DNA of 64,000 nt from Methanoregula sp. (GCA_022710385.1 JAKLGZ010000001.1:1-64000), one strand, 5' to 3'. Shown: positions 39,959 to 60,124, counted from the stretch's first letter. The notes: generated from the sequence alone by a model not told the origin. Numbers and translations are program-made.

Positions 39959-40700
39959 GAGAGGAGGGGAATCCCCTCACTCTCTCTCATCCTAAAAGAG
40001 GATTTTTTAACGCTGAACAACAAAAAGAAGGAATTCGAAAGGAGGGGATTCGAAATCCTGGCTTTTCCCTCTCTATCTTGAGATAAATATATATATTTGG
40101 ATTTATAATCTCATCCTTGACCATCAATCAAGGTGGTGGTTAGTGGAGTGGGGACGCGCACCGTTTTTACGAACCCTCATGTGGCACCCAGACTTTTCGC
40201 GAGCGTTCCCATTTCATTTCATAGCATATTTTTCCGAAGAGACCTGATCTCAGTTCCTATCTGACCTCAGAACATTGGACCTGACCAGACTCATTCTTAG
40301 CCGCCCGAACTCAGATCAGATCACCATTCCCCGGGTTTCCCGGAACACTGAATGCGTTGGCCGGGAAAGGAGCGTTTGTTTCTGATGCGACGGTCATAGT
40401 GAGGAGTGGTTCTCTTACTTTGAGCGGTTGGAGCGACGGGTATCTTGCAGGGAAGCTATCAGTCCATAAGAAAAAGGGAAAATGATTCCATCAGATGGAT
40501 GATCTCAATCCAATTATTTTTCTCATGCATATGCCTATAGGAATTAGTATGGAGACCCCCTCTTCTCGCCGTATTTTATGCAAGATGAATCTTCATCCCG
40601 TCCAGGCGGCTATCTCTATACTCTCCGTCAGGGATGCATGTCTGCCATTCTGGAAAGCGTTGAATATCCTTCTGATGGATGAGGGCCAGGGGAGACCATT
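39959..40700. other. Long intergenic region before the NHL mosaic gene
   Basis: This 742-nt stretch has A/T-rich ATATATATTTGG at about 40088-40099, which could be a promoter. A short frame from about 40350 to 40484 reads as protein-like (S-D-A-T-V-I-V-R-S-G-S-L-T-L) but has no clear start, and 40495-40704 has no recognisable features. It may hold the remains of an old gene; I see no RNA gene. Confidence 0.35.
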
Positions 40701-43700
40701 GTGACGAAACTGTTTTTGGGACTTGTTCTCTGTGTAGTGTTGATCGCCGGGGGCGAGGCAGCCGTACCGGTCGGGTACCAGTTCAACGGGACATGGGGAG
40801 GACTCGGCAGTGAGCCTGGAAATTTTTCCAGCCCTCTTGGCATTGCATCGGACCAGGCAGGAAATGTCTACGTAGTCGATAGCAATAACCACAGAATCCA
40901 GAAATTTTCATCAAGCGGGACATTTCTCACCGAATGGGGTAGTCTCGGTGAATGGAACGGATTCTTACAATACCCCGCTGGAATTACTGTTGATCGTGAC
41001 GGAACTGTCCTTGTTACCGATGCTGGGAATAACCGGGTCCAGGTATTTACCGATGAGGGGATGTTCATCAATGCCTGGGGTTCAGATGGGGTGGGGGATG
41101 GCGAATTCTGGTATGCGGAGGGTATCGCGTGCGATTCGGAAGGGAATGTATACGTCGTCGATCACGGGAATCACCGGGTCCAGAAATTCGACCCGACGGG
41201 AGTGTTCCTGGCCAAATGGGGGAAAAATGGCGGTGACGGTTCATCAGGGACCGGACCGGGAGAATTTTATCATCCGCGTGGCATCCTGGTCGACCAGAGC
41301 GACAGGGTCTACGTGGTCGATACTGAGAATAACCGAGTCCAGAAATTCGATCTGAACGGAAGTTACCTGGGAGAGTGGGGCTCCTTTGGTTCCGGAGATG
41401 GCAAGTTCACCGCTCCGCGTGGCATTGCTGCAGATGGTGGCGGGAATGTCATGGTCGTGGAGGAATTGAATCACCGGGTCCAGAAATTCACCCCGGATGG
41501 AATTTTTATCTCATCATGGGGCATTGAGGGTTCGCTTGCCGGACAATTCTCTCATCCTTGTGGTATTGCTGTCGGTTCGAATGGTGAGATCTCTATAACG
41601 GATAGCAACAACCACCGGATCCAGTGTTTCAGGCCGGTAATCTCCTTTGTCAACAAGATGGGGGCATCCGGAACCGGACCCGGCGAGTTCATCCTACCTA
41701 CGGGTGTTGCCTATGACGCCTTTGGGGACCTCTACATAACCGACATGGGAAATCACCGGATCCAGAAGTATGCTGCTGATGGGACCTGGTTGTGCTCATG
41801 GGGGACCCAGGGTGCAGAAGAGGGGCAGTTCCATTGGCCATGGGGTATCGCCATCAATGGAACCGGGTACGTCTATGTAGGTGATTCGATGAACAACCGG
41901 GTCCAGGTTTTTTCCGGAAACGGAACGTTTGTCACTTCGTGGGGCTATTATGGAACCGGAGCAGGAGAGTTCAATGCTCCGTGCGATATCGCACTTGATC
42001 CTGCAGACAGGGTATATGTCGCCGATTACGGGAACCAGCGGATCCAGGTTTTTGAGGCTGACGGGACCTACCTGTTTACCGCATGGGGGGAAGGCTACCT
42101 TAATCCCCGGGGGATTACGATAGACAGGAACGGGAATATTGTCTGTGCTGACGATGCTCTTCGCAGGATATACACTCTTTCTCCGACGGGAGCATATATC
42201 CGATATTGGGGATCAAACGGCACCGGACCCGGTGAATTTTATTTTCCTTCTGGAGTTGTGACTGACGGGAACGGGGATTTTTACATCACCGACACCATGA
42301 ACCACCGGGTACAGAAGTTGAATGAAACCGGCGGGTTCATCGCATCATGGGGATCATTTGGGAGTGCTGATGGGCAGTGTAACCAGCCATACGGGATAGC
42401 CCTCAGTCCAGGGGGTGCCCTTGCCATCACCGATAGTGAAAATGCCCGTATTCTGCATTACACCACGACTGGAGCGAGGAGCCCAGTCCTTGGGTCAATC
42501 GATCCGGATACCGGTTTTCTCGGACTGCCAGTGACTATTGTCAGCCTCTCCGGCTCGTATTTCCAGGAAGGCCCGCCTGCACCCCAGGTCAATCTGAAAA
42601 GGGCCGGGCAGAGTCTGGTGAGAGGATCTGAGGTTTCCGTCCTGTCCCCAGAACGGATTGCCTGCAGGTTTGACCTTCCTGCAGATCCTGCTGCTGAGGG
42701 GATATGGGATGTTGTTCTCACCAATCCTGATGGTCAGTCAGTGACCCTTGGGAGTGCTTTCAGGATTGAATCCCTGCACGTGCTGGGGATAGATCCCCCT
42801 TCCGGTGTTATCGGAACTCCCGGCATCGGCTACTCGGTCACGGGAACCGGTTTTCACCCCGGCTCTTCTGATACTGAAGTGGCACTGAACCGATCAGGGT
42901 ATCCTGATATTCCCGCCACAAATGTCACGGTTCAGTCTTCCCGGAACATCACCTGCAATTTCGGTTTTCCCTCTGATGAGGCTGTGCTGGGAATATGGAA
43001 TGTTGTGGTTACCGGTCCGGGAGGACAATCTGCGTCTCTTCCGGATGGCTTTTCTCTTGTGCTCCCACCCCCATGTATTACTGATATTCATCCGTCAACA
43101 GGAGTGAACAATGCCAGTGTTAGGGTCACTCTCCTCGGATCGGGTTTCAGGCCTGGGATGAATGAGACCGCTGTACGACTCAATCAGACCGGACATCCCG
43201 ATATTATCGGAACATCGGTATCAGTTCTCTCATCAGGGGAGCTGTCCTGTCAATTTGGCATTCCTGCTGATGGAGCCGGGAGCGGAATCTGGGATGTCGT
43301 GGTGACAAATCCCGATCACCAGGCAGGGAGTTTACAGGAAGGGTTCATTACCGCTCAGCCGGACAATTCATTCGTCCTGGAGTGGGGATCAGATGGAGTC
43401 GGACCCGGGCAGTTCTGGCACCCGTATGATATCACGGTCGATAAACAAAGGAGCAAGGTCTATGTGGTGGACTATAACCTGAACCGTGTCCAGAAGTTTA
43501 CCACTGACGGCAGGTACCTGGGCGGATGGGGGTCCTGGGGGAATGGAACCAGCCAGTTCATGTGTCCAACCGGCATCGCAGTGGACAGTACCGGGAATAT
43601 TTTTGTGGGAGACTCGTGGAATTACCGGGTCCAGAAATTCAACAGTACATTTGGCTACCTGACGCACTGGGGCTCTCCTGGAAATGATGAAGGCGAGTTC

Positions 43701-46034
43701 GACACACCATGGGGTGTTGCAGTGGACAGCGATGACAACGTCTATATTTCTGATTTTGATGGGGTGTATATCCAGAAATTCAACGGGAACGGTGAATTTA
43801 TCCTGCGTTTTGGAGGGGCTGGATCTGGTCCGGGCCAGCTGGTGAATTCCTGGGCGGTCGCCGTTGACCGGAATGATGATGTACTGGTTGCCGATACCGT
43901 GAACCACCGCGTGCAGAAATTTTCAAAGAATGGAGATTTTCTCACTATGTGGGGTTCAGCCGGGACCGGGAACGGGCAATTTGACTTCAGCCGTGGTATC
44001 GCAACCGACGGCCTCGGGAACGTCTATGTTGTCGATGGAGGCAATAACCGGGTTCAGAGGTTCAGTGGTGACGGAGTATACCTGTCCCAGTGGGGTTCCT
44101 ATGGGAATGGTTCCGGGCAGTTTGACTACCCCTATGGTATTGCCACGGACAGCGCCGGATTCGTCTATGTCGTAGATAATTTTAACCACCGGGTCCAGCT
44201 CTTTGCGCCCGGGGCCATCACACCGGGAATACGTTCGATTGACCCGAACAGCAGCATCCCCGGTTCCCCTGTGAACCTTACCATACAGGGGGCGAATTTC
44301 TACACCGGGGAGATGAAACCCACCGTGATCCTTCACCGCACGGGGCATCCGGACATCATTGCGACGGAGGTCAATGCGGTCTCCTCTGATCTGATCACCT
44401 GCAAATGTATTCTTCCAACCGGGGGTGATGCAATCGGGGACTGGAATGTCACCATCACCAATCCCGATGGAAAGTCCATCACCCTTGTCGACGGGTTCAG
44501 TATTGTTCCTCCCACTTCGATCACGCTTACGACTCCGGTTGGAGGTGAGAACTGGACCAGGGGGACTGATGTGACCCTGTCATGGATTTATCGTGATGAT
44601 CCAGGTCCCCAGGTCAGGATCGAACTCCTCAAAGGAGCATCGCTGAGCCAGGTGATCCTTGAGAATGCCCCCATCGGGTTTGCCGGCTCAGGATTCGCTG
44701 TCTGGACGATACCCTTCGACCAGGATCCCGGGGCGGATTACCGGGTCCGGATCACCAGCGTCAGCACTCCCGCGTATACCGATACCAGCAGGGCAGCCTT
44801 TCGTATCAGTGCCGGTGCCCCGATAACGGTGACTGCGCCGAATGGCAACGAGAGCTGGAAACCGGGGACCAGCCAGAGAATCTGGTGGAAGTATACAGGG
44901 AATCCGGGACCTGCCGTTAAGATTGAGGCCCTCCGGGGAGAGACAGTCCTTGGAATTGTTACCCCGAGTACACCCCTCGGAGAGAACGGATTCGGTTCAT
45001 TTCCTCTCACGGTGCCCATGAACGCCCCTTATGGCACCGATTATCGGATCCGGGTCACCGATACCAATGATTCCACCTGCACTGATACGAGTGATGGGCC
45101 CTTCAAGGTCATTTCAGGTACCGGGGCCTCCATCACTCTGGTTTCCCCCAACGGCGGTGATGACTGGCAGCAGGGCTCCACGCGTACGATCAGCTGGAAC
45201 TATATCGGCGATCCTGGTCCAACAGTGAAGATTGAGGCACTTCGGGGAGATACGGTACTTGCGGTCATCGCTCCCGGTGCTCCGGTAGGTATAGGAGGTT
45301 CGGGATCGCTGAACCTGACGTTGCCCATCAATGCCCCGCTCGGTACTGACTATCGTATCCGGATCTCAAGTACCAGTAATAGTGTCTACACCGATATGAG
45401 CGATGCCCCCTTCAGCATCAGTGGTAATACCAGTTCCTCAATAATGGTAATATCACCTGATGGTGGTGAAAACTACCTGCAGGGATCTACCCAGGCCATT
45501 CGATGGACCTATACTGGAAATCCAGGACCCACGCTCAGGATCGAGGCATTGCGAGCTGAGAAGCTACTGGCAGTGATCATGTCTAGTTATCCAATCGGGG
45601 CAGGAGGTTCAGGCTCTTTCAACCTGACATTCCCCTACAACACGCCCCTCGGGTCTGATTACACGATCCGGGTCACCAGCACCAGCAATCCTGCCTGGAC
45701 TGATACGAGCGATGATTCATTCACAGTCAGTCCGGCGATCACCGTGGCGACTCCCAACGGGGGAGAAACCTATCAGGTTGGCGACATCCTTTCCATGAAT
45801 TGGACCTATACCGGCAATCCCGGCCCGACAGTGGATATTGCTGTGATGAAGGGGCCAGCCACCCTGAAAACACTCGCCGGTATCTCCATCGGAGCAGGTG
45901 GATCCGGATCCTACCAGGTGACAATTCCTTCCTCAACCCCATCGGGATCTGATTACAAGATCCAGGTTACCAGCACCAGCTATCCCGCTTGTAGTGATAG
46001 GAGTGATGAGGCGTTCACGATCATTGCCGGGTGA
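40701..46034 (+). CDS. Giant NHL-TIG-KNH mosaic surface protein
   Basis: This 1777-aa exported protein starts at GTG 40701 with GGGGAG a few nt before it and a signal peptide (L-F-L-G-L-V-L-C-V-V-L-I-A-G-G-E-A). Parts in order: about a dozen NHL repeats (about 25-595) of the type W-G-x-x-G-x-G-P-G-E-F / N-x-Y-V-x-D-x-x-N-H-R-I-Q-K-F, enough for two six-bladed propellers; three TIG/IPT Ig domains (about 600-880); a second NHL propeller (about 890-1170); a TIG domain (about 1173-1272); and five KNH-type repeats (1273-1777). No C-terminal helix or sorting motif is visible. It probably binds other cells or polymers. The final repeats resemble the protein cut at the window start. Confidence 0.92.
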   Translation: MTKLFLGLVLCVVLIAGGEAAVPVGYQFNGTWGGLGSEPGNFSSPLGIASDQAGNVYVVDSNNHRIQKFSSSGTFLTEWGSLGEWNGFLQYPAGITVDRDGTVLVTDAGNNRVQVFTDEGMFINAWGSDGVGDGEFWYAEGIACDSEGNVYVVDHGNHRVQKFDPTGVFLAKWGKNGGDGSSGTGPGEFYHPRGILVDQSDRVYVVDTENNRVQKFDLNGSYLGEWGSFGSGDGKFTAPRGIAADGGGNVMVVEELNHRVQKFTPDGIFISSWGIEGSLAGQFSHPCGIAVGSNGEISITDSNNHRIQCFRPVISFVNKMGASGTGPGEFILPTGVAYDAFGDLYITDMGNHRIQKYAADGTWLCSWGTQGAEEGQFHWPWGIAINGTGYVYVGDSMNNRVQVFSGNGTFVTSWGYYGTGAGEFNAPCDIALDPADRVYVADYGNQRIQVFEADGTYLFTAWGEGYLNPRGITIDRNGNIVCADDALRRIYTLSPTGAYIRYWGSNGTGPGEFYFPSGVVTDGNGDFYITDTMNHRVQKLNETGGFIASWGSFGSADGQCNQPYGIALSPGGALAITDSENARILHYTTTGARSPVLGSIDPDTGFLGLPVTIVSLSGSYFQEGPPAPQVNLKRAGQSLVRGSEVSVLSPERIACRFDLPADPAAEGIWDVVLTNPDGQSVTLGSAFRIESLHVLGIDPPSGVIGTPGIGYSVTGTGFHPGSSDTEVALNRSGYPDIPATNVTVQSSRNITCNFGFPSDEAVLGIWNVVVTGPGGQSASLPDGFSLVLPPPCITDIHPSTGVNNASVRVTLLGSGFRPGMNETAVRLNQTGHPDIIGTSVSVLSSGELSCQFGIPADGAGSGIWDVVVTNPDHQAGSLQEGFITAQPDNSFVLEWGSDGVGPGQFWHPYDITVDKQRSKVYVVDYNLNRVQKFTTDGRYLGGWGSWGNGTSQFMCPTGIAVDSTGNIFVGDSWNYRVQKFNSTFGYLTHWGSPGNDEGEFDTPWGVAVDSDDNVYISDFDGVYIQKFNGNGEFILRFGGAGSGPGQLVNSWAVAVDRNDDVLVADTVNHRVQKFSKNGDFLTMWGSAGTGNGQFDFSRGIATDGLGNVYVVDGGNNRVQRFSGDGVYLSQWGSYGNGSGQFDYPYGIATDSAGFVYVVDNFNHRVQLFAPGAITPGIRSIDPNSSIPGSPVNLTIQGANFYTGEMKPTVILHRTGHPDIIATEVNAVSSDLITCKCILPTGGDAIGDWNVTITNPDGKSITLVDGFSIVPPTSITLTTPVGGENWTRGTDVTLSWIYRDDPGPQVRIELLKGASLSQVILENAPIGFAGSGFAVWTIPFDQDPGADYRVRITSVSTPAYTDTSRAAFRISAGAPITVTAPNGNESWKPGTSQRIWWKYTGNPGPAVKIEALRGETVLGIVTPSTPLGENGFGSFPLTVPMNAPYGTDYRIRVTDTNDSTCTDTSDGPFKVISGTGASITLVSPNGGDDWQQGSTRTISWNYIGDPGPTVKIEALRGDTVLAVIAPGAPVGIGGSGSLNLTLPINAPLGTDYRIRISSTSNSVYTDMSDAPFSISGNTSSSIMVISPDGGENYLQGSTQAIRWTYTGNPGPTLRIEALRAEKLLAVIMSSYPIGAGGSGSFNLTFPYNTPLGSDYTIRVTSTSNPAWTDTSDDSFTVSPAITVATPNGGETYQVGDILSMNWTYTGNPGPTVDIAVMKGPATLKTLAGISIGAGGSGSYQVTIPSSTPSGSDYKIQVTSTSYPACSDRSDEAFTIIAG
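44518..46031 (+). repeat. Five tandem KNH-type coding repeats
   Basis: Repeat units begin near 44518, 44818, 45130, 45439 and 45736, each about 300 nt and each starting I-T/M-V-x-x-P-x-G-G. They are the coding counterpart of the partial repeat at 1-321, and could support recombination between the two loci. Confidence 0.75.
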
Positions 46035-46087
46035 TGAGAGTAGAGAGAAAAGAGTGTACCGGTCGAGAAGGGAATCCCAATTTCAAC

Positions 46088-46093
46088 TTTTTT
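46088..46093 (+). terminator. T6 terminator after the mosaic surface gene
   Basis: A T6 run follows the stop at 46034 by about 54 nt, inside an A/T-rich stretch. Confidence 0.35.
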
Positions 46094-46290
46094 ATATGAA
46101 CTTGCATGTGGATAACTGACCAGGAAAGGAGGTATCAGGACCATCACTCTTTTATCCCGGCGGAAAGAGAGACTCTGTTTGAACGATGACCCTGTCGTTG
46201 CCATCGGGAATTCTGTGTAGCGAGTCTCCCCCGTGCTGATAAGGGAGGGGATACCGTTCGGTGAGGGCAGGGCAGAGGTGAAGAGGACCG

Positions 46291-46728
46291 ATGGAATTGG
46301 GTGATGAGGAAGACCAGCGTCTGGAGGAGATCTGGATCACTATCCTCAGGCGACTCACCCGGACCATCTCCCGGACCCCGTCCGGGATCCCGGAATATCA
46401 CCCTGGTCCTCCCAAGACGCCCCTGGAATCCCACCGTCCGCTCCCTCACCTCGCCGGTGTCTATGCTTCGTCAGACCTGGCTGCCGCTATCGCAGGCGAT
46501 CTGATCGGGCGTGACCTCCCCGTCAAAGTCGAGCGACATGAGACCCCTCCTCCGTATTCCCAGGTTATCGGGGATCACACCGGCACCCTGGTGCGCGGAC
46601 ATACCGGCCCGGTCTGGGTGGTGTGGACAGATTACCACAACAACAGGTGTGAGACTATGCAAGGACCGGCCGGAAAAGACATAATCCCACCAGGTATGAG
46701 GGGCGATCAGACAAGGAAGATACCATGA
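46291..46728 (+). CDS. Uncharacterised protein, paralogue of the one at 59666-60124
   Basis: This 145-aa protein starts after GAAGAGG. Residues about 52-113 (L-A-G-V-Y-A-S-S-D-L-A ... V-I-G-D-H-T-G ... G-P-V-W-V-V) align with V-A-G-I-Y-S-T-A-E-V-A ... V-I-G-T-P-E-G ... G-P-V-W-V-I in the protein at 59666-60124. The first 50 residues differ completely: they are basic and proline-rich here. The tail after about 113 looks like low-complexity sequence. The gene overlaps moeA by 4 nt, so it may be translationally coupled to it. I do not know the family. Confidence 0.7.
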   Translation: MELGDEEDQRLEEIWITILRRLTRTISRTPSGIPEYHPGPPKTPLESHRPLPHLAGVYASSDLAAAIAGDLIGRDLPVKVERHETPPPYSQVIGDHTGTLVRGHTGPVWVVWTDYHNNRCETMQGPAGKDIIPPGMRGDQTRKIP

Positions 46729-47951: not shown

Positions 47952-48173
47952 GAGGGGATCCATTCTGATACCGACAGGAAAGTCGCCCTCGACAATCGGC
48001 ATTCGCATTTCTTTGGAGCGAAAAGGCCGATAAAAGAGATACCGTTGCAGGAGGTATTCTTCGGAAGGGACCACTCTGTACTCGAGCAGGGGCTGTATCC
48101 CCCTGATCCCCCGTGAATGGAGGACGAAGATCCATCTGGAGAGACGATCATCGACACACATTGGCAGACGCAT
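47838..48173 (-). CDS. Possible small protein downstream of the AAA ATPase gene
   Basis: This 111-aa frame starts 31 nt after the stop of the giant AAA gene on the same strand, directly behind an AGG. The non-overlapping part (before 47952) reads as ordinary protein (L-L-E-Y-R-V-V-P-S-E-E-Y-L-L-Q-R-Y-L-F-Y-R-P-F), with codon choice like the neighbours. The final third overlaps the 3' end of moeA antisense by 114 nt, which is unusual. If real, it would be the third gene of the VWA-AAA unit. Confidence 0.3.
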   Translation of the reverse strand: MRLPMCVDDRLSRWIFVLHSRGIRGIQPLLEYRVVPSEEYLLQRYLFYRPFRSKEMRMPIVEGDFPVGIRMDPLSWLHSVPDELDPDDLPFMERVLTFRDCSNGGSSRHCR

Positions 48174-48204
48174 TCCTGGTTGGAATAGGAGGAATCAGCA
48201 GGTA

Positions 48205-51200
48205 TCAGATCTTCTCCCCGGCCGGTGACCACGGGATGAACCTGACCTCCATCCCGGAAGAACCAACCCCGGACTCCCTGAGGATCCCGTTCATTGCAGA
48301 GAGAAAGTCGTTTTCGAGGCTGACCACGAGCGTGTCCTGTTCCTTGTAATACCGGATGTCAGAGATCGGGAGACCCTGCCATCGAACTTCCCTGCCATCC
48401 CCGGCATGCAGGACGGTCGTCCCGGCAGGATAGCCCGCCTGGTTGATCACAAGACCGGTGCCATCGCCCTTTCGGCCCACAGCAAATGAGAAGAGGCGTT
48501 CCATCGGACGGTACTCCAGGGAGATGTTGCTTATCTCAAGGTGAACAAGGGGATCGTGAGCCGGTCCGGTCCGTGCATACTGCCAGGGATGCCCTGACTC
48601 CTGGAATGACGCAACGAGGTGGCTAAGGATCCAATCATACCGGTCATCCTCGATGACCTTCAGCCGGCCGAACCGGCCTGGGAGCGAGGCGAGCTCCAGG
48701 GTTGCCACAGGGTTAGGTTGGCCAAGCCAGAATCCACGGACAATCGGGGGTGTACCTTTCAGCCCTCCACTGCTGCCCCCTTCCTGGAGGAACCGGACGA
48801 TGAAGACCGACCGCAGGTGATCCCTCCCATTGGAGTCGCAGACCAGGATATCTCCCCTGGAGAGCTGGGTTCCCCTCCGGATCGGCTCGGCACACTCCCG
48901 GAACTCTGCAAGTATCATGCTCATTTTTGATTCGGCTATCATATCCCTCGGCTTTACGGTACTCAGGAACACGGAAGCCGCATACCGCCGCAAGGCCTGG
49001 AGGTGCTCCTGGGTCTCTGGGAGAAGTACCTGCCTCCGCCTCTCTTCGCAGACATCGAGGAGAGAGAACGGGATCACCAGTTGTTCAGAGAGCGGATGCT
49101 GATCCCCTTCGGACGGAGACAGATCCCAGATGACCGGACCAAACCCGTCCACCTCCACGACAAACCCGATCTGTATCCCTTTGCCGGGTATGAGGGTGTA
49201 GAGGATATCCCCGAACCCTAACCGGACAGTCGAACGAGGCCGGGCATAGACAAAGAGATCCTCAAGGCGGGGATATGCTGTCCGAATAAGGGGGGCAAGG
49301 ATGGCAGACTGGTAGGATCCAGTAGCCATCGATCTGAATCCTGCTCCGCGTATCCCCACAGCAGCTGCACACGTATCTTCAAGAATAAGGAAGAGGGTCC
49401 CTTCATGATAGGCCAGGCCCCGGAAGGGATCGCCTGCACAGGGTACCTGGGCTCCTCCTTCCCTCCCACTCCAGGCACATATCCCGCCCTTCCAGCGGAC
49501 CATACCTTCTCCGGGAATATGAATCGCCCATCCATCCGGAGTGGCAACCAGCCGGAAGCCTGCCGGATGTTCACGGCTGACCTCCCCCTCACGATACGAA
49601 GGGCTGGTCCAGGGGGGTGAAGGGAGGCGGTAAAGGGTCCTGACAAATTCCTGGCAGCTCCCGCATGCCTGCACCATCTCTCTGACGATCATCGCAAGTG
49701 ATGGCGATGCAGGGATTTTTGTCTCTGGTTGGGCCATCTCGTAGATGGCAAGGGTATGCATCTGATCGGAGGCGACAAGCACATACTCACCTCCACTCCT
49801 GTGCAGGGAGGGTGCCGGTGATGAGGGGAGGTTTGTGATCAGGGCTGGGTATCCTGTCCGGTGGTTCACTGCTTCAGCAGAGAACGCGTGTCTGCCCTGC
49901 GTGACCCTGACCTCCATTTCAAGGACCCTGTATTCATCCCCATGGTCCATCAGGAGCAGTCCGCCAGGGGAGAACCCGGCCTTGATCTCATCGCAGGCAT
50001 TGGCGTCCCTGCCGCATGCAAGGAGGATCTCGGCAATCCGGAGGTGACATACCCAGTCTCTTCCGGCAGGGATGTGGGGAATCATCTCCCTTAAAACCCT
50101 GATTGCTGCGAGCGGTTTTCCTATTGCCTGGTAGGTCTCTGCAAGGGCGATACCCTTCTCCTCGTCGCCTTTCTTCTGGTCCCACGAGGTGCGAAATCGT
50201 TCGAGTGCAGCCGAGGCCGCAAGAACGTTCCGGTCGTAACCCGCAGCCGAGAGAGCTGCCTGTACCGCATGCAGCTCCCGGCCATCCCTCGGCCCGTAGC
50301 AGCTGCAGAGGAGATCCACCAGGTTGACAGCCCTGGACGCATACTGAAGCCCCCGTTCGATCGCCGCCTCCTCGTTCCTCATCGTCACCGGTTCGAAGAG
50401 CATTCCGCTGCTGTACAGGGGATGGAGGGTATAATATCCCTGGACCACATCGGATACAAAGTCGGGATCGGCTCCCGGATACTTCCTCTTCAGCACTTCG
50501 ACCGCCTGCCCGGGAGGGAGGTGAACGATAGTATGGATGGAGAACCGGTCCATGAACTCGAACGAGAAGTCATTCACCTCGTAAGGAGGCCGGTTGGGGT
50601 TGATATTCACACAGATTGAGGCCCTGACCGGGACCTCTCTTCCTCCCGGCAACCTGACGGACCGGTCCTGGAGCAGGTCATTAAACGAGACGAGAACCCC
50701 GGGCTGTGCCTTGTTCGCCTCGTCAAGCACGATGATCCACCCGTGATCCGGGTCAGTGAGGGCACGCAGACCGAGCGTCGCGGTATCCCCTGTTTTCCCT
50801 GCCTCGTCCTCGCCAAAACTCCGGTACGTGAGGAGGTCTGAGACCCGGGTCTCGCCGCTCATCCCAATCACGAGGAGATTGTAATTGAGGAGGTGGGCGA
50901 GGTAACTCTCGATCTTGTTCTTCCCGACCCCGGCCTCCCCGATAAGCAGGATATTTTCACCGAGTGCGATGTCTTTTAGGATCCATTCCAGGTCGGCAAG
51001 GTTCTGCGGGACCTCCTCAATCTCGGTATCGGGCACGTATGGCCCCCCCTGACCGAGGGGATATGCCACCGATCCGATCCGGAGCAGCGGGGCATTGCCC
51101 CCCTCTTCCCGGACCACCCGTGAATGCTCCCTGCGCCGGTCCCCGGCATCAACAATATCATGGAGGTCGAGGAGATCGAGGACCAGTTTCCGTGCGATAG

Positions 51201-52173
51201 GGGGATGAATCCGGTCATCGAGCCAGTACGCCTTCCGCCAGAACAGGGAACGAAGCAGGCAACAGTCCTCCGGGAACCGGGCAAGGTGCCGGACAACCCG
51301 GATCAATCCACGCGTTGTCACAGGGAAAGGGACCACCCCGTGCTCCTCGGTATAATCCCTCCTGATATCATTGGCAACTGCGATCAGCCGATCAAGGATC
51401 GAATCATCAACCCCCGGTCCATAGTCCTTCAACACTTCGAACTCTTCATCCGGCGGGAGGAACCGGAGGTGCACCTTGTTTGTGAACCGGTTCACAAACT
51501 CCCCGCTCATGACCTTTCCCTCGTAAATCCCCCTGCCTTCGCTCTTCTGGGGGTTGACCGTCGCGATAAAACGGCTGTCGGGATGTCCGCGGATCACCCG
51601 CTGATGGAGACTTTTTGCCTTGTTCTCGAGCGGTTCGTTGAACTCGGCCTGGACGTCCTCCCCGGTCCGGTTGATCTCCGAGAGGACGTTCCAGTCCCCG
51701 GCGACCATGCCATCCATGACATCGCTCATCGTCCAGCCCGTCTTTTCTTCGCCTGTCTCGCCGTAATGTCTCCGTTCGGTAATATCTGACCTCCGGAGGT
51801 TTTCATGGAAGGTTAAAATCCTGGTCTGGAACGAGGCAGCCCTCTCTGCAGCATGGGCGGCGGCATGGGGGTCATGGAGCCCTGCCGCCATCACCAGGAG
51901 GGCCTGCCGGTATACCTCGCCCAGATACCGGACCAGCATGGTCTTTCCTGACCCTGACTCCCCTGTCACGAGCAGGTTGTTCCGGGACGGCATCCGGAGG
52001 GCATCCCACATCTGTTGCAGCGAGGAGATAGTTGAGGGGACGAGGACGATGAAGGGTTCTGCCGGGGCAGGGATCCGGATCTCCCCGATGGCAAGTTCGG
52101 TCGCAACCGGCACCCGGCTGCCGGATCGCCATGCGGTCACCTTCAGGGGTCCGAGGCTGCTCAGTCCTGGCAT
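48205..52173 (-). CDS. Giant double AAA+ ATPase (MoxR/midasin-like) with large unknown C-terminal half
   Basis: This protein has 1322 residues. Start 52173 was chosen because GCGGAGGAATC lies directly before the ATG and overlaps the end of the VWA gene by 13 nt. AAA1 (about 50-350) has Walker A G-E-S-G-S-G-K-T (71-78), but its Walker B reads W-N-V-L-S-E-I-N near 160-167, with Ser where Asp is expected; sensor 1 is A-T-V-N-P-Q. AAA2 (about 400-620) has Walker A G-E-A-G-V-G-K-N near 410, Walker B I-V-L-D-E-A-N-K near 480 and N-I-N-P-N. After that come a helical TPR-like part (about 670-760) and about 550 residues of mixed beta sequence not recognised. It probably remodels protein complexes with its VWA partner. 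Confidence 0.85.
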   Translation of the reverse strand: MPGLSSLGPLKVTAWRSGSRVPVATELAIGEIRIPAPAEPFIVLVPSTISSLQQMWDALRMPSRNNLLVTGESGSGKTMLVRYLGEVYRQALLVMAAGLHDPHAAAHAAERAASFQTRILTFHENLRRSDITERRHYGETGEEKTGWTMSDVMDGMVAGDWNVLSEINRTGEDVQAEFNEPLENKAKSLHQRVIRGHPDSRFIATVNPQKSEGRGIYEGKVMSGEFVNRFTNKVHLRFLPPDEEFEVLKDYGPGVDDSILDRLIAVANDIRRDYTEEHGVVPFPVTTRGLIRVVRHLARFPEDCCLLRSLFWRKAYWLDDRIHPPIARKLVLDLLDLHDIVDAGDRRREHSRVVREEGGNAPLLRIGSVAYPLGQGGPYVPDTEIEEVPQNLADLEWILKDIALGENILLIGEAGVGKNKIESYLAHLLNYNLLVIGMSGETRVSDLLTYRSFGEDEAGKTGDTATLGLRALTDPDHGWIIVLDEANKAQPGVLVSFNDLLQDRSVRLPGGREVPVRASICVNINPNRPPYEVNDFSFEFMDRFSIHTIVHLPPGQAVEVLKRKYPGADPDFVSDVVQGYYTLHPLYSSGMLFEPVTMRNEEAAIERGLQYASRAVNLVDLLCSCYGPRDGRELHAVQAALSAAGYDRNVLAASAALERFRTSWDQKKGDEEKGIALAETYQAIGKPLAAIRVLREMIPHIPAGRDWVCHLRIAEILLACGRDANACDEIKAGFSPGGLLLMDHGDEYRVLEMEVRVTQGRHAFSAEAVNHRTGYPALITNLPSSPAPSLHRSGGEYVLVASDQMHTLAIYEMAQPETKIPASPSLAMIVREMVQACGSCQEFVRTLYRLPSPPWTSPSYREGEVSREHPAGFRLVATPDGWAIHIPGEGMVRWKGGICAWSGREGGAQVPCAGDPFRGLAYHEGTLFLILEDTCAAAVGIRGAGFRSMATGSYQSAILAPLIRTAYPRLEDLFVYARPRSTVRLGFGDILYTLIPGKGIQIGFVVEVDGFGPVIWDLSPSEGDQHPLSEQLVIPFSLLDVCEERRRQVLLPETQEHLQALRRYAASVFLSTVKPRDMIAESKMSMILAEFRECAEPIRRGTQLSRGDILVCDSNGRDHLRSVFIVRFLQEGGSSGGLKGTPPIVRGFWLGQPNPVATLELASLPGRFGRLKVIEDDRYDWILSHLVASFQESGHPWQYARTGPAHDPLVHLEISNISLEYRPMERLFSFAVGRKGDGTGLVINQAGYPAGTTVLHAGDGREVRWQGLPISDIRYYKEQDTLVVSLENDFLSAMNGILRESGVGSSGMEVRFIPWSPAGEKI

Positions 52174-55100
52174 GATTCCTCCGCAGAAATCGACCTGCCC
52201 TCCCTCCAGCCGGCCATGGCCGGGCGGCCAAGTTCCCTCCGCAGTTCCTCGCCAAGCGACTGCGGGAGGTCGGCAATATCCCTGACCCAAGTCCCGTAGG
52301 GGCGATAGGTTGCCTCAACCTGCTCCATGTCAGGGCCGATCCCCCACCCGAATATCCGGGTATCCCTGGTTGTCCTGAGTATCGCTCTCATCTGCTCCCT
52401 CCCCCCAACCCCTGATTGCCCGTCAGATATGACGAAGACCATCCGGTTTGTCCCGGTTCCCATCCGGAGACGGTTCATCCGCTCAAGCGCACTGCTGACC
52501 GCCCCCACGTCATTGGTCCCCCCCGTGGCATGGATCACCTGCCGGATCAGATAGCACCCCTGGTGGACGTTCCAGTCGTCCAGGTACCGTTTGAGCGGGA
52601 TATATTCGCTGTCGGTAAACGCCGCGATCTCGAACCGGATATCCGGGATCCTGGTGACCGCCTCGCCAAAGAGGAGGGCCGCCTGGATCGTTGCCTGGAG
52701 TTTCTTTGCCACGGTCTCATCGTGCATACTGCTGCTCGCATCGATCAGGAGGGAGAGGCACCACCGGGTCCGGTCAGGCTCTCGTTCCCGGTCCCTGAAG
52801 ATCCGCATCGTTGTCCGTACTGCGGCAAGGTTCTCCTCGTCAATATCATCCCCGGTCATGAGCTCGTTCAGGTCCCGGCTCCCCCGGCTCTTCTGGAGGG
52901 CCTGCTGGATGTTTTTCCGTGCTACACCAATCAGACCGGCGACCGGCTGGTAGAAGCGCTGATAGATGGTATAATCGTCCTCTCCCACCGCGTGCGACTC
53001 GAACAGGGCGATCCGCCGAATCCGTTCCGCCTTCTCCTCGATGGTCTCCCAGTCGCTTTTCGTCCTCTGTTTCAGGGCGCTCAGGTACTGCTCTGCCTCG
53101 CGGGTGAGTGCCTGCTCACCTGGATCATACGGCTTTTGCTCCATCGGGGATTTCCCGGTCCCTGAGGGTCCTTCAGGCTCACTATGGCTCCCGTCATCAT
53201 ACGTGGCATCGAAATACGAAAAACTGTCCCATACATCAGGAGAATATGATGTGTCGGGAACAAAGGAAGGGATCATCCGTCCCCGGCTGGTTGTGGGGGG
53301 TTGTATCCCGGGACCACCCGGTGCTTCAGTCAACCGGATCTTCAGGCCCCCCTCATCAAAGGCGGAAGCCGATGTTGCACAACGCCTTTGGAATTCGACT
53401 CCCGCCTTCTGGAGATCCCGGAACGCCTCTTTTGTCATCCCCGTGCGTCTCTCTCTCAAGGCTGAATTGGAGGCAGATGCCTCTTTCAGGAATTCCATCC
53501 CTTCGACGGCGTCCCGGTACTCCCTTGCCGCTTTCCTGATGTCCCGTGAGGTCTTCAGCAACCCGTCGAGCTCTTCGCCCTTCCTACCCGAAGGCGATCC
53601 TTCGATGCTGTTGGCACCCTCCTGCATGCCGAGGAGCTGCTGCTCCAGAGTCTCAGCGAGAGAATCGATCTGCCTGGCAAGCCCTGAGAGATCAGATATC
53701 GTCTCTCCCTGGTCTGGGATTATGTTGTCAGCCCCAGCCTCGACACCCTGCTCACCTGCTCCGACAAGGTTATCAAGGAGATCCTCACTCCGGCCGCATG
53801 CCTCCACCAGGGCATCTGCCGTGGCAGGGATACCAGGTCCGTGTTCACCGGATCCCCGGGCGCCAGGTGCCTTACCAAGCGACGGACGACCCCTCCCGCT
53901 CATCCTCCCCGGCCTGGTCTCACTGAAAGGAGATCCCCCCGGGGTTAAAATCCCATCGCCGTCACCGATGATGCTCATTCCGTTTCCTGCAAGAGCCCTG
54001 CCGGTTGCTGTATGGGAAGGCTGGTGAGGGCTGGGTACAATGGTATCGGGACGGTCTACGCTCCCATGGGGAGCATAGGAAGGGGATTTTTGGCTGGAAT
54101 GCGGTACACCCCCGCCAGTCGTTCCTTTTGACGGGATCTGGCAGAGATGTGCGAGGAATGGCCATACCTGTTCGGTGATGATCTGCAGATATGTTTCATC
54201 GGGAGCAGCCACGGCATCCCACCGTGCAATGGCTGTGGCAGCTAGGGCATGCCGGACTGCATCGCCTTCAATATGGCTGGCCGGCTGACCGATCCGTCCT
54301 TCAAAGAGGACCCCTTCCAGGAACTGGTCAGGGAGGGGTAATCGCCTGATCCGGCCCCGGTCTGCACAGCGGTTCACCAGGGCATATTCTTCCTGGCAGA
54401 ACCGATCAATCCATCTGATTACACCAGGATGAAGTGCGGACCCCTTCCAGACCGCTCTCTGGAGTCCGATCACCCTGACAAGGCGGAGGAACCAGGGATC
54501 ATCCGGCAGGTCATGCCCGTGAGGCTGGATACCGAACCACTCTCTGTACCATGCTTCCATCAGGAGTGCCTTTGTGGCATCTCCGCTCCGGAAGGCAAGT
54601 TCGTCAGGGTTATAGAGAATGAGATGGCGTTCCGGCCAGAGGTCAAGGATCGGGCTGAAGGCCGGGACTGTGGAAAGGAGGGGAACCGCTCTCCACTGGT
54701 AATCTCCGCTCACCGCACGGAGCAACTGTTCCTGCTCCTGCATGGTCCGATCGAGGTTTTTCAGGAGGCCGTCACCTGGTTCAGCACGACCAGACACCCT
54801 TCCTGCCAGAGTCCGTGCACACTCAAGAAGAAGGCTGATCCCGGATTCCTGGTCATCCCCCGATGCACCCTGTATCATCCCGGCAAACAGGTGGCCGGCA
54901 TTACCCTCCACTCGCCCGAACGAGAGATCCTTTTCCAATTCTTCCCTGGCGAGGATTACCGCAAAGAGCTCCCGAATGTCGGGAACCATCCCTTCACGGA
55001 AGAACAATTCCTCCCCTGCTTCGAACAGTTCGAAAGCATCCCTCCCGAATGTACGGGTAAACGCGGTGATTCCCCCATTCTGGATCACTCCGGTATCTGC

Positions 55101-55751
55101 CGCTGTCTGGAGGATAAATTCTGAAAAGACGGGTTCAGGGATCATCCCTGCCCGAACGAGGGAGATGAAGAGGGCAGTATACAAATGACCGGAGAAGCGA
55201 TCAGGATCGTCTGCGTGAGGTATCAGGATCCGGCCGTCGTCGGCAATAAGAGGGGGACTTCCCGGTGACGGTATCTGTCCGGCAGTTTCGAGGAGCAGGG
55301 CAGCCGGGATGCGCTGCATGCGGGTTATTCCTGGACTGAGGAGATCCTCGAGGGACAGGGGGGTGATGGTTGATCGGAGCTGGAGGACCACAGGTTCGGG
55401 ATCCCGGGGTGAGACGGTCATCCCCCAGACCCTGCATGAAACGTCAACCTGGGCTTTCTGGATTTCCGTGAACTGTGCGAGTATCAACGGCACGAGATCC
55501 CGCGGATCGCCAATAGTCCCGTCAGTGAGGGATGACTGCCGCTCCCTTTCCCTGATGGCGCTGGTCAACTGGTCCCGGGTGATACCGGTTGACCGGATTG
55601 TGGCGGTGCAATCCCGTATTCCTTCAAGAGCTGTGCGATATTCATCCCGATTCGCCGGGGTGACAAAAGCATCGGTGATCGGATCATGCTCTGCACAGCT
55701 GCCAAGAAGCATCCGGAGGAGCCGGAACAGGTGATGGACATGAACTTCCAT
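52161..55751 (-). CDS. Giant VWA-domain protein (partner of the AAA ATPase)
   Basis: This 1196-aa protein has a C-terminal VWA domain (about 990-1170) with a MIDAS motif D-A-S-S-S and T-G-G-T-N-D-V-G and a further acidic site in I-S-D-G-Q-S-G. The N-terminal 600 residues are mostly helical and unassigned; residues about 560-800 include a low-complexity Pro/Ser/Gly linker and an E-T-L-E-Q-Q-L-L coiled coil. The VWA-after-helical layout recalls CobT, NorD and CbbO partners of MoxR-class ATPases. The gene overlaps the AAA gene by 13 nt, so the two are a unit. The start ATG at 55751 has no good ribosome site. Confidence 0.8.
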   Translation of the reverse strand: MEVHVHHLFRLLRMLLGSCAEHDPITDAFVTPANRDEYRTALEGIRDCTATIRSTGITRDQLTSAIRERERQSSLTDGTIGDPRDLVPLILAQFTEIQKAQVDVSCRVWGMTVSPRDPEPVVLQLRSTITPLSLEDLLSPGITRMQRIPAALLLETAGQIPSPGSPPLIADDGRILIPHADDPDRFSGHLYTALFISLVRAGMIPEPVFSEFILQTAADTGVIQNGGITAFTRTFGRDAFELFEAGEELFFREGMVPDIRELFAVILAREELEKDLSFGRVEGNAGHLFAGMIQGASGDDQESGISLLLECARTLAGRVSGRAEPGDGLLKNLDRTMQEQEQLLRAVSGDYQWRAVPLLSTVPAFSPILDLWPERHLILYNPDELAFRSGDATKALLMEAWYREWFGIQPHGHDLPDDPWFLRLVRVIGLQRAVWKGSALHPGVIRWIDRFCQEEYALVNRCADRGRIRRLPLPDQFLEGVLFEGRIGQPASHIEGDAVRHALAATAIARWDAVAAPDETYLQIITEQVWPFLAHLCQIPSKGTTGGGVPHSSQKSPSYAPHGSVDRPDTIVPSPHQPSHTATGRALAGNGMSIIGDGDGILTPGGSPFSETRPGRMSGRGRPSLGKAPGARGSGEHGPGIPATADALVEACGRSEDLLDNLVGAGEQGVEAGADNIIPDQGETISDLSGLARQIDSLAETLEQQLLGMQEGANSIEGSPSGRKGEELDGLLKTSRDIRKAAREYRDAVEGMEFLKEASASNSALRERRTGMTKEAFRDLQKAGVEFQRRCATSASAFDEGGLKIRLTEAPGGPGIQPPTTSRGRMIPSFVPDTSYSPDVWDSFSYFDATYDDGSHSEPEGPSGTGKSPMEQKPYDPGEQALTREAEQYLSALKQRTKSDWETIEEKAERIRRIALFESHAVGEDDYTIYQRFYQPVAGLIGVARKNIQQALQKSRGSRDLNELMTGDDIDEENLAAVRTTMRIFRDREREPDRTRWCLSLLIDASSSMHDETVAKKLQATIQAALLFGEAVTRIPDIRFEIAAFTDSEYIPLKRYLDDWNVHQGCYLIRQVIHATGGTNDVGAVSSALERMNRLRMGTGTNRMVFVISDGQSGVGGREQMRAILRTTRDTRIFGWGIGPDMEQVEATYRPYGTWVRDIADLPQSLGEELRRELGRPAMAGWREGRSISAEESCQD

Positions 55752-56031
55752 GGGGATCTGGATTGGACCGGATTGGCCGGGGAACGGGGACGATCCGGTA
55801 CCAGTTCATATCTATTCGCCATCTTCTGACTAATAGCTTCAGATACAGATCTGGTTCAAACCAAAAAAAGCGAGAGTCCTGCCATCAGGTACATTCCCGG
55901 AAGGTCCTTTTTTCCTTAATCAGGATAATTCCTTCTGACTGACAGCCTCCGTGTATTCCCGTGCTCCTTTTTTTCATACAGCATTATCAGATCCCCCACC
56001 CCAGGTATGATTACCATCCCGGGATACTGCC
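55752..56031. other. Divergent region between the VWA/AAA unit and the ABC exporter
   Basis: This 280-nt region should contain both promoters. An A-run at 55862-55867 and T-runs near 55909 and 55969 were seen; no gene is supported. Confidence 0.35.
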
Positions 56032-59493: not shown

Positions 59494-59700
59494 ATGATTC
59501 CTTCACCAGCGATTGGGGGTTGGCTGGAATCGTATGAGGAAAAGGGATCAGGTCAATGGATCCGGCCAGTTTCTATCCCATCCATCCGGACAAGAGCGGA
59601 ACAGATAAGCCTGAATCAGAAGAGGTTTATGCTGGATACCCTAAGAGACTGGGACGCTGAAGAAGATGACAGAGACACCTACCCTCCCTTCCATCGATGA
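59494..59700 (+). CDS. Possible small protein coupled to the following gene, 68 aa
   Basis: This frame overlaps the start of the gene at 59666 by 35 nt. It reads I-P-S-P-A-I-G-G-W-L-E-S-Y, then R-A-E-Q-I-S-L-N-Q-K-R-F-M-L-D-T-L-R-D-W, a plausible helix, and ends in charged residues. An AGGA lies about 12 nt before the ATG. It is either a short upstream gene or an N-terminal portion joined to the next by a frameshift. Confidence 0.35.
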   Translation: MIPSPAIGGWLESYEEKGSGQWIRPVSIPSIRTRAEQISLNQKRFMLDTLRDWDAEEDDRDTYPPFHR

Positions 59701-60124
59701 GGAGCCGTTCATGGTTGAATCGGAGACAGTGAATGCCATCAGGGCCAGGGCACCGCTTGAGGCGATCATCCTGGATTTTATGCTGATCGACGGGAGGGCT
59801 GTCGTGGTCGACATGACCCTGGAAGAGGTCCGGGAGGGAATCAAGGCACGGTATGAAATCGATCCCTTCGAGGATGCACATCAACCAAGGGCAGCCAAGG
59901 AAGCCCCTTCGATAGTCCCATATGTCGCAGGGATCTACAGTACCGCTGAAGTGGCAAAGATTATCGCCACCAGGCTGATCGACGCCGGATTCCCCGTCCT
60001 GGTGGAACAACTTCCCGAGGCTCCTCCTGATGCTGATGTAATTGGGACACCGGAAGGAGGGTTGGTGCAGGATCACCAGGGTCCGGTCTGGGTGATAAGC
60101 ACCGGGTATGCCGGGAGGAGTTAG
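59666..60124 (+). CDS. Uncharacterised protein, paralogue of 46291-46728
   Basis: This 152-aa protein has an N-terminal half unique to this copy (V-N-A-I-R-A-R-A-P-L-E-A-I-I, then V-V-D-M-T-L-E-E-V) and a C-terminal half (about 85-150) shared with 46291-46728: V-A-G-I-Y-S-T, D-A-D-V-I-G, and the block D-H-Q-G-P-V-W-V-I. The two occur in different contexts, so they form a small family peculiar to this or related genomes. It has no signal, helix or metal motif. GAAGAAG precedes the ATG. Confidence 0.7.
   Translation: MTETPTLPSIDEEPFMVESETVNAIRARAPLEAIILDFMLIDGRAVVVDMTLEEVREGIKARYEIDPFEDAHQPRAAKEAPSIVPYVAGIYSTAEVAKIIATRLIDAGFPVLVEQLPEAPPDADVIGTPEGGLVQDHQGPVWVISTGYAGRS

Follow-up and report, generated by a model that had tools for sequence, protein, structure and literature searches.

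What do two overlapping giant genes in a Methanoregula genome make together, and does the product belong to a system that has already been described? The genes lie in a stretch of 64,000 nucleotides of Methanoregula sp. DNA (GCA_022710385.1, JAKLGZ010000001.1:1-64000), which we call the window. A sequence-only reading of this stretch had proposed an overlapping pair, a VWA/MIDAS protein of 1196 residues and an ATPase of 1322 residues with two AAA domains, and the proposal is borne out by the open reading frames (ORFs), the Pfam matches and an invariant MIDAS. Comparison among relatives shows joint inheritance of two overlapping genes, one for an ATPase with tandem AAA domains and one for a separate VWA protein whose MIDAS is complete; the core of the pair is constrained while its outer parts diverge fast. 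We consider it somewhat probable that the two genes encode a self-contained remodelling machine, horizontally mobile and of the MoxR/midasin (helix-2-insert) clade of AAA+ proteins, which would work as a ring with a VWA gripper. Both ORFs were verified in the window:

52161..55751, minus strand: gene of the VWA/MIDAS protein, first of the pair; ORF with ATG start, 1196 aa, orthologues in 7 further genomes
48205..52173, minus strand: gene of the tandem-AAA ATPase, second of the pair; ORF with Pfam support, 1322 aa from the ATG
52161..52173, minus strand: 13-nt overlap of the two genes, identical in loci L018, L019, L020, L022, L023 and L024 (compared in those relatives where both gene ends are present in the locus)

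The ATPase frame could be extended to a TTG start at 52290; the ATG is the start conserved among relatives. In Pfam, AAA_5 matches the ATPase at 2.3e-30 and spans two P-loop regions, and VWA/VWA_2 matches the VWA protein at 3e-4 in the window and at 2.5e-9 in the best-scoring relative. The claimed link between VWA and AAA, for which a lack of co-occurrence had been named as refuting, came out stronger: each protein, used as a query, finds one and the same set of 7 among the 61 related genomes. Identical sets of seven would have a probability of one in C(61,7), about 2e-9, if the genes were independent, which they are not, being adjacent. The VWA profile finds the VWA gene in 8 of the 232 genomes of the order, all 8 in one family, and among 394 genomes drawn from the phylum it finds the same carriers plus one distant giant protein and nothing more. 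A scan for the ATPase in one genome per species of bacteria and archaea gave seven loci, all in Methanomicrobiales; its exact peptide patterns reach close relatives only, so that more distant relatives in bacteria may well exist. It should be noted that several carriers are incomplete metagenome-assembled genomes and that absence from such genomes is weak evidence; the ATPase is present in 2 of the 45 good-quality genomes of the 61-genome set.

The two proteins evolve at two speeds. Identity per 50-residue block, computed leaving out a 91%-identical copy, is mostly 0.64-0.90 in residues 51-650 of the ATPase and 0.62-0.82 in residues 901-1196 of the VWA protein; elsewhere in both proteins it is mostly 0.22-0.5, with about 26-52% per block in the ATPase tail. 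Between the window and genome G008 the ratio of nonsynonymous to synonymous divergence (dN/dS) is 0.07-0.12 in the AAA domains and the pre-VWA/VWA core and 0.24-0.42 in the TPR region, tail, head and linker, with moeA, a neighbouring gene, at 0.21. No positive selection was seen in the outer parts of the two closest copies, where every ratio is below 0.45. The pattern shows a core under constraint and outer parts that are relaxed or diversifying; it does not show positive selection. A chance overlap or a pseudogene is ruled out by the conservation and by the low dN/dS of the core.

What kind of motor is the ATPase? Its parts, all on the minus strand, are as follows:

51139..52056, minus strand: AAA1, CobS-like, residues about 40-345 (PHROG 249 at 5e-26; CobS at 1.6e-6, 30.5 bits by single domain)
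51940..51963, minus strand: Walker A of AAA1, GESGSGKT, intact (the same in all 6 complete ATPases)
51676..51684, minus strand: Walker B of AAA1, L-S-E, with Asp changed to Ser and Glu kept (S165 and E166 invariant)
50254..51051, minus strand: AAA2, midasin/dynein-type AAA_5, residues about 375-640 (best solved single-domain match a midasin AAA, 30.5 bits against 19.8 for McrB)
50917..50940, minus strand: Walker A of AAA2, GEAGVGKN, with Ser/Thr changed to Asn (invariant)
50719..50727, minus strand: Walker B of AAA2, L-D-E, intact (invariant)
49969..50196, minus strand: TPR-like helices, residues about 660-735 (TPR_19 in 5 of 8 members, best 1.6e-5; TPR modules in Foldseek, TM score to the target about 0.6)
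48208..49959, minus strand: mainly beta C-terminal region, residues 739-1322 (predicted model, Foldseek, fast evolution)

The Walker motifs are degenerate in a complementary way, AAA1 being defective in Walker B and AAA2 in Walker A, and they are identical in all 6 complete ATPases. The arginine fingers (R229 and R543) and the sensor-2 arginine are retained in both domains. Loss of the Walker A hydroxyl in GKN should weaken Mg-ATP hydrolysis by AAA2. The two domains are homologous to each other by profile (hhalign, 98%); each has, at the sequence level, an insert-like segment between Walker A and Walker B, and these putative helix-2 (H2) inserts share the motif SD[IL]..xR..GE....KTGxT. The homology and the common motif fit an internal duplication, with both inserts lining one pore. 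Among solved structures CobS is the best match of AAA1 by single domain (30.5 bits against 21.8 for midasin). Midasin was rejected as the single nearest relative of AAA1, its whole-chain score being inflated by its six AAA domains. As to the roughly 550 residues at the end of the ATPase in which the sequence-only reading had recognised nothing, about 580 mainly beta residues are indeed without a match, Foldseek finding nothing at E<=0.001 for residues 739-1322; the part that did not stand is the beginning of the tail, where the weak TPRs lie. The model of residues 560-1322, which as a whole also gave no Foldseek match at that threshold, has a mean predicted local distance difference test score (pLDDT) of 73.6. 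In one carrier (G026, L024:10001-13538) the ATPase frame is split near residue 299 into frames of 316 and 892 aa, through either faulty assembly or decay of this copy.

The partner protein joins a conserved core to a large and variable head:

54132..55751, minus strand: all-helical N-terminal region, residues 1-540 (conservation, and helices predicted in a model of low confidence, whose pLDDT reaches 75-90 only in places)
53832..54131, minus strand: probably disordered linker, residues 541-640 (pLDDT about 25-30, no secondary structure)
53367..53831, minus strand: long helices that probably form a helical bundle or a coiled coil, residues 641-795 (predicted model)
52764..53144, minus strand: conserved helical pre-VWA module, residues about 870-996 (residues 901-1000 about 80% identical; the match to a giant protein of genome G233 reaches into it)
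52212..52763, minus strand: VWA domain, residues about 997-1180 (Pfam VWA; best solved match the midasin MIDAS domain)
52728..52742, minus strand: MIDAS motif DxSxS, DASSS at 1004-1008 (invariant columns)
52515-52517, minus strand: MIDAS T1079 (invariant)
52422-52424, minus strand: MIDAS D1110 (invariant)

The MIDAS is complete and its residues are invariant across the family. The stretch ahead of the VWA, put at about 600 residues by the sequence-only reading, is actually about 990 residues long, the VWA fold starting near residue 997. Residues 1-540 are about 25-45% identical between genera. Among solved structures the sole significant match of the VWA core is the midasin MIDAS domain (2.2e-4, covering the VWA fold; VWA subfamilies were compared in part only), and the core also matches PHROG 1576. 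The chain labelled 'NDE1' in PDB 8ql1 is, by its matches to midasin entries, a midasin-type MIDAS domain instead. The model of the whole VWA protein has a mean pLDDT of 49.6 and is interpretable for secondary structure only; it gave no Foldseek match at E<=0.001.

How could a chain with two AAA domains form a ring? A possible answer comes from two single-chain giants of 3261 and 3311 aa, found in another family of the same phylum (L031:3278-13063 in G233 and L085:635-10570 in G414). Each has six AAA_5 domains and, besides a WD40-like region, a VWA at its C-terminus, a midasin-like layout outside eukaryotes. Domains 1, 3 and 5 are mutually 48-74% identical and domains 2, 4 and 6 42-69%, whereas odd and even domains share 24-31%; a tree splits odd from even at 98/99, and Walker A alternates between GKD and GKS/T. 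By this repeat pattern the six domains of each giant are three covalently joined copies of a two-AAA unit, evidently the product of triplication. They resemble the pair in having AAA_5 units in pairs and a homologous pre-VWA/VWA module (VWA E=1e-15 within the G233 protein) and differ from it in being one chain, in carrying three copies of the AAA pair and in their Walker A sequences. This 3 x 2 repeat is the main reason for proposing that the window ATPase trimerises into one ring. The argument is by analogy, because the AAA domains of the window join neither the odd nor the even set (long branches).

In the mechanism that we propose, three ATPase chains would close into a single ring of six AAA domains, the two unlike kinds of site alternating around it. 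AAA1, with its intact Walker A, would be the likely hydrolytic site and AAA2 a binding or regulatory site. In NorQD the VWA docks via a finger/H2-insert contact (PMC13036017, PMC9976466), and in Rea1 the MIDAS domain docks on the ring (PMC11603028); the VWA domain of the pair may dock on its ring in the same way. The MIDAS metal would then grip an acidic residue of a client selected by the fast-evolving head and tail, and ATP hydrolysis would pull or twist the gripped client, which would be stripped, opened or activated. The client would be encoded outside the locus. By analogy, a VWA docked on a MoxR-clade ring with its MIDAS gripping a client, the working principle common to midasin, CobST and the ternary systems of Kaur et al., appears to be the best-supported mechanism (PMC13036017, PMC9976466, PMC11603028, PMC7159879), and the best solved relatives of the pair are VWA-coupled motors, midasin for AAA2 and the VWA and CobS for AAA1.

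Several points weigh against the proposed ring and gripper. The geometry rests on sequence and analogy, and the tandem chain might instead build two stacked homohexameric rings in the style of Cdc48/ClpB. We regard such stacking as unlikely: tandem AAA proteins of other clades do stack, whereas dynein and midasin, multi-AAA proteins of the same clade, form a single ring. The giants, moreover, have their 3 x 2 repeat joined covalently, and the motif common to the H2 inserts of AAA1 and AAA2 is what one would expect of inserts that line a single pore. The pore finger is not seen in the VWA protein, because its model is poor. It is also conceivable that ATP is still hydrolysed at both the GKN and the S-E site, or at neither. 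In the giants the Walker A order is GKD and then GKS/T, and AAA1 and AAA2 of the pair map unclearly on odd and even domains. No client or effector was identified for the pair.

Is the pair a fixed part of the genome? One segment answers this question:

47991..55957: segment present in the window and absent from the close relative G011, which joins both flanks directly

The G011 flanks match the window at 90-96% DNA identity up to 47990 and resume at 55958, just under 8 kb being missing cleanly, and moeA and an ABC exporter stand there 155 bp apart without the pair between them. The two genes are likewise adjacent without the pair in G010. G008 has the pair at the same site as the window and is about 89% identical to the window over 16 kb that take in the pair and the flank with moeA. 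Loss in G011 after a single gain is the simplest reading, because G008 carries the pair at that site. Silent divergence between the window and G008 is 0.17-0.29 in the pair, similar to moeA (0.24). Trees of both proteins group G007, of the window's genus, with G169, of another genus (support 100/100 and 96/95), so the two genes have moved together between genera. Judged from these comparisons, the pair is accessory and horizontally moved. Direct and inverted repeats in the segment are short and imperfect.

The neighbours of the pair differ from genome to genome: moeA in the window and G008, asparagine synthase/Gat genes in G035 and G026, a flavin mononucleotide (FMN) reductase in G027, and an arsenic permease (ArsP) with zinc efflux in G169. 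The exporter and moeA, which had been offered as possible clients, were rejected as client or operon partner, since G011 and G010 have them side by side with no pair between, and in other genera the pair has neither of them beside it. The G169 copy (L020) lies amid the ArsP permease, cation efflux and further metal-related genes, that is, in an accessory-gene region. Elsewhere in the window, a gene for a 1777-aa NHL-repeat-like surface protein (40701-46034; window 40290-46285) has no counterpart in the syntenic region of G011 either, so the variability of this part extends beyond the pair. Two small proteins of 145 and 152 aa (46291-46728 and 59666-60124) flank the pair; they are alike by eye (GxY..., GPVWV motifs) and have no Pfam family match.

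What, then, is the pair for? Its accessory and mobile spread, the lack of a constant neighbour and the fast outer parts make a conditional role, in conflict/defence or in maturation of an accessory complex, likelier than housekeeping. A pair that senses a protein complex of a virus or plasmid and takes it apart or blocks it, with the variable head and tail as recognition parts, is conceivable, if rather unlikely. Patchy distribution, horizontal transfer, clean presence or absence at one site in close relatives and fast evolution of the non-motor parts are consistent with it, and MoxR-vWA conflict systems have already been described (PMC7159879). On the other hand, no effector domain and no third component are seen and dN/dS gives no positive selection. 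PADLOC version 2.0.0 gave only short generic matches in the P-loop region to IetA, mad8 and PtuA, and the neighbours checked in the loci include no defence genes. Pfam families of the conflict systems such as bpMoxR are not among the matches listed at E<=1 for either protein (for the ATPase, the best 25 of 26), though bpMoxR does match the giants. The role in defence or quality control raised as an option by the sequence-only reading drew no support from these searches. A more specific version seems to us distinctly unlikely: a so far undescribed and horizontally transferred immunity machine of two archaeal genes, whose tandem-AAA chains would assemble as a trimer into a pseudo-hexameric ring like that of midasin, active sites alternating with regulatory ones, and whose fast-evolving head and tail would choose the invader complex to dismantle.

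We are similarly doubtful, and no less so, that the pair is a maturation or cofactor-insertion chaperone of an accessory enzyme, like CobST, NorQD and CbbQO. The CobS-like AAA1 is the main support for it; most MoxR/VWA pairs of known function act so (PMC9976466), and a helical head, linker and VWA is the layout of NorD. Known pairs, however, usually sit beside their client, whereas this one has no constant neighbour across genera, and PF06213 (CobT) has no match in the window genome. We think it very unlikely that the pair is a chaperone that stems from an archaeal virus or mobile element or is kept for the benefit of one. There is a proposed precedent in p618/p892 of the Acidianus two-tailed virus and in halovirus AAA/VWA genes, AAA and VWA genes are neighbours in archaeal viruses (PMC7911831), and the VWA core and AAA1 match PHROG families 1576 and 249. 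Yet two viral-contig scans and a tblastn search of phages and plasmids gave no orthologue of the pair, no tRNA landmark was found in the scanned loci, and the neighbours examined include no integrase or virion gene. Origin by direct viral or plasmid orthologues was rejected, the phage and plasmid matches being generic MoxR-like AAA domains that cover 11-18% of the ATPase.

Does the pair belong to a described system? The general features of a MoxR-clade AAA+/VWA pair are present, namely an AAA_5/MoxR ATPase of the helix-2-insert clade and a co-inherited, adjacent VWA partner with a MIDAS. The claim of an AAA/VWA remodelling pair with tandem AAA domains and large unassigned regions is supported, and no described complex of the same architecture was found. 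Membership in midasin, CobST and the ternary systems of Kaur et al. fails in each case on one or more of the defining features tested. With midasin/Rea1/Mdn1, a eukaryotic ribosome-maturation machine, it shares AAA_5 domains and a VWA with a MIDAS, which in Rea1 docks onto its ring (PMC11603028). It differs in having two AAA domains instead of six, the VWA on a separate protein and a patchy, accessory distribution, with no Rea1-type linker found and no ribosomal link; midasin unites six AAA domains, a linker, a D/E-rich tail and a MIDAS in one chain, which the pair does not. With CobS-CobT and the phage homologues (PHROG 249) it shares the arrangement of ATPase and VWA in two neighbouring genes and a CobS-like AAA, the latter in AAA1 only. 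It has, unlike them, a second AAA domain, a TPR/beta tail and a larger size; no cobalamin genes are at the locus, and CobT is absent from the Pfam matches listed for the window VWA protein.

NorQ-NorD and CbbQ-CbbO follow a ring-plus-adaptor logic similar to the one proposed for the pair, and their VWA partner is likewise built of a helical N-terminal region, a linker and a VWA. Their ATPase, however, is about 30 kDa in size with a single AAA domain and is tied to a known client enzyme, whereas the pair has no constant client gene. VWA8 likewise has AAA_5 domains and a VWA, but in a single chain, and it is a eukaryotic mitochondrial protein. The MoxR-vWA ternary conflict systems resemble the pair in the MoxR-clade ATPase, the vWA co-chaperone, mobility and fast-varying outer parts, and the TPR-then-beta-rich tail recalls their beta-propeller subsystem (Kaur et al. 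2020, PMC7159879). The pair differs from them in having two genes instead of three, in being archaeal, in its tandem AAA and in having no effector. No VMAP, iSTAND, FtsH or bp-family domain was found in it, and in the loci examined no constant third gene (VMAP, iSTAND, FtsH or a beta-propeller/TPR protein) stands beside it.

MoxR/VWA pairs are widespread, but little has been documented of the logic by which the simple homohexamers of NorQ and CobS connect to concatenated rings such as those of midasin and dynein. An ATPase with two AAA domains whose sites are defective in complementary ways, together with the triplicated archaeal giants, would offer a directly testable prokaryotic intermediate. 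If the immunity machine is real, the pair would, with the giants, illustrate how triplication of a two-AAA unit can give rise to single-chain rings of the midasin type. A defence role, if true, would make the pair a new kind of defence system for archaea; if it serves enzyme maturation, its client would point to an unrecognised accessory pathway of methanogens.

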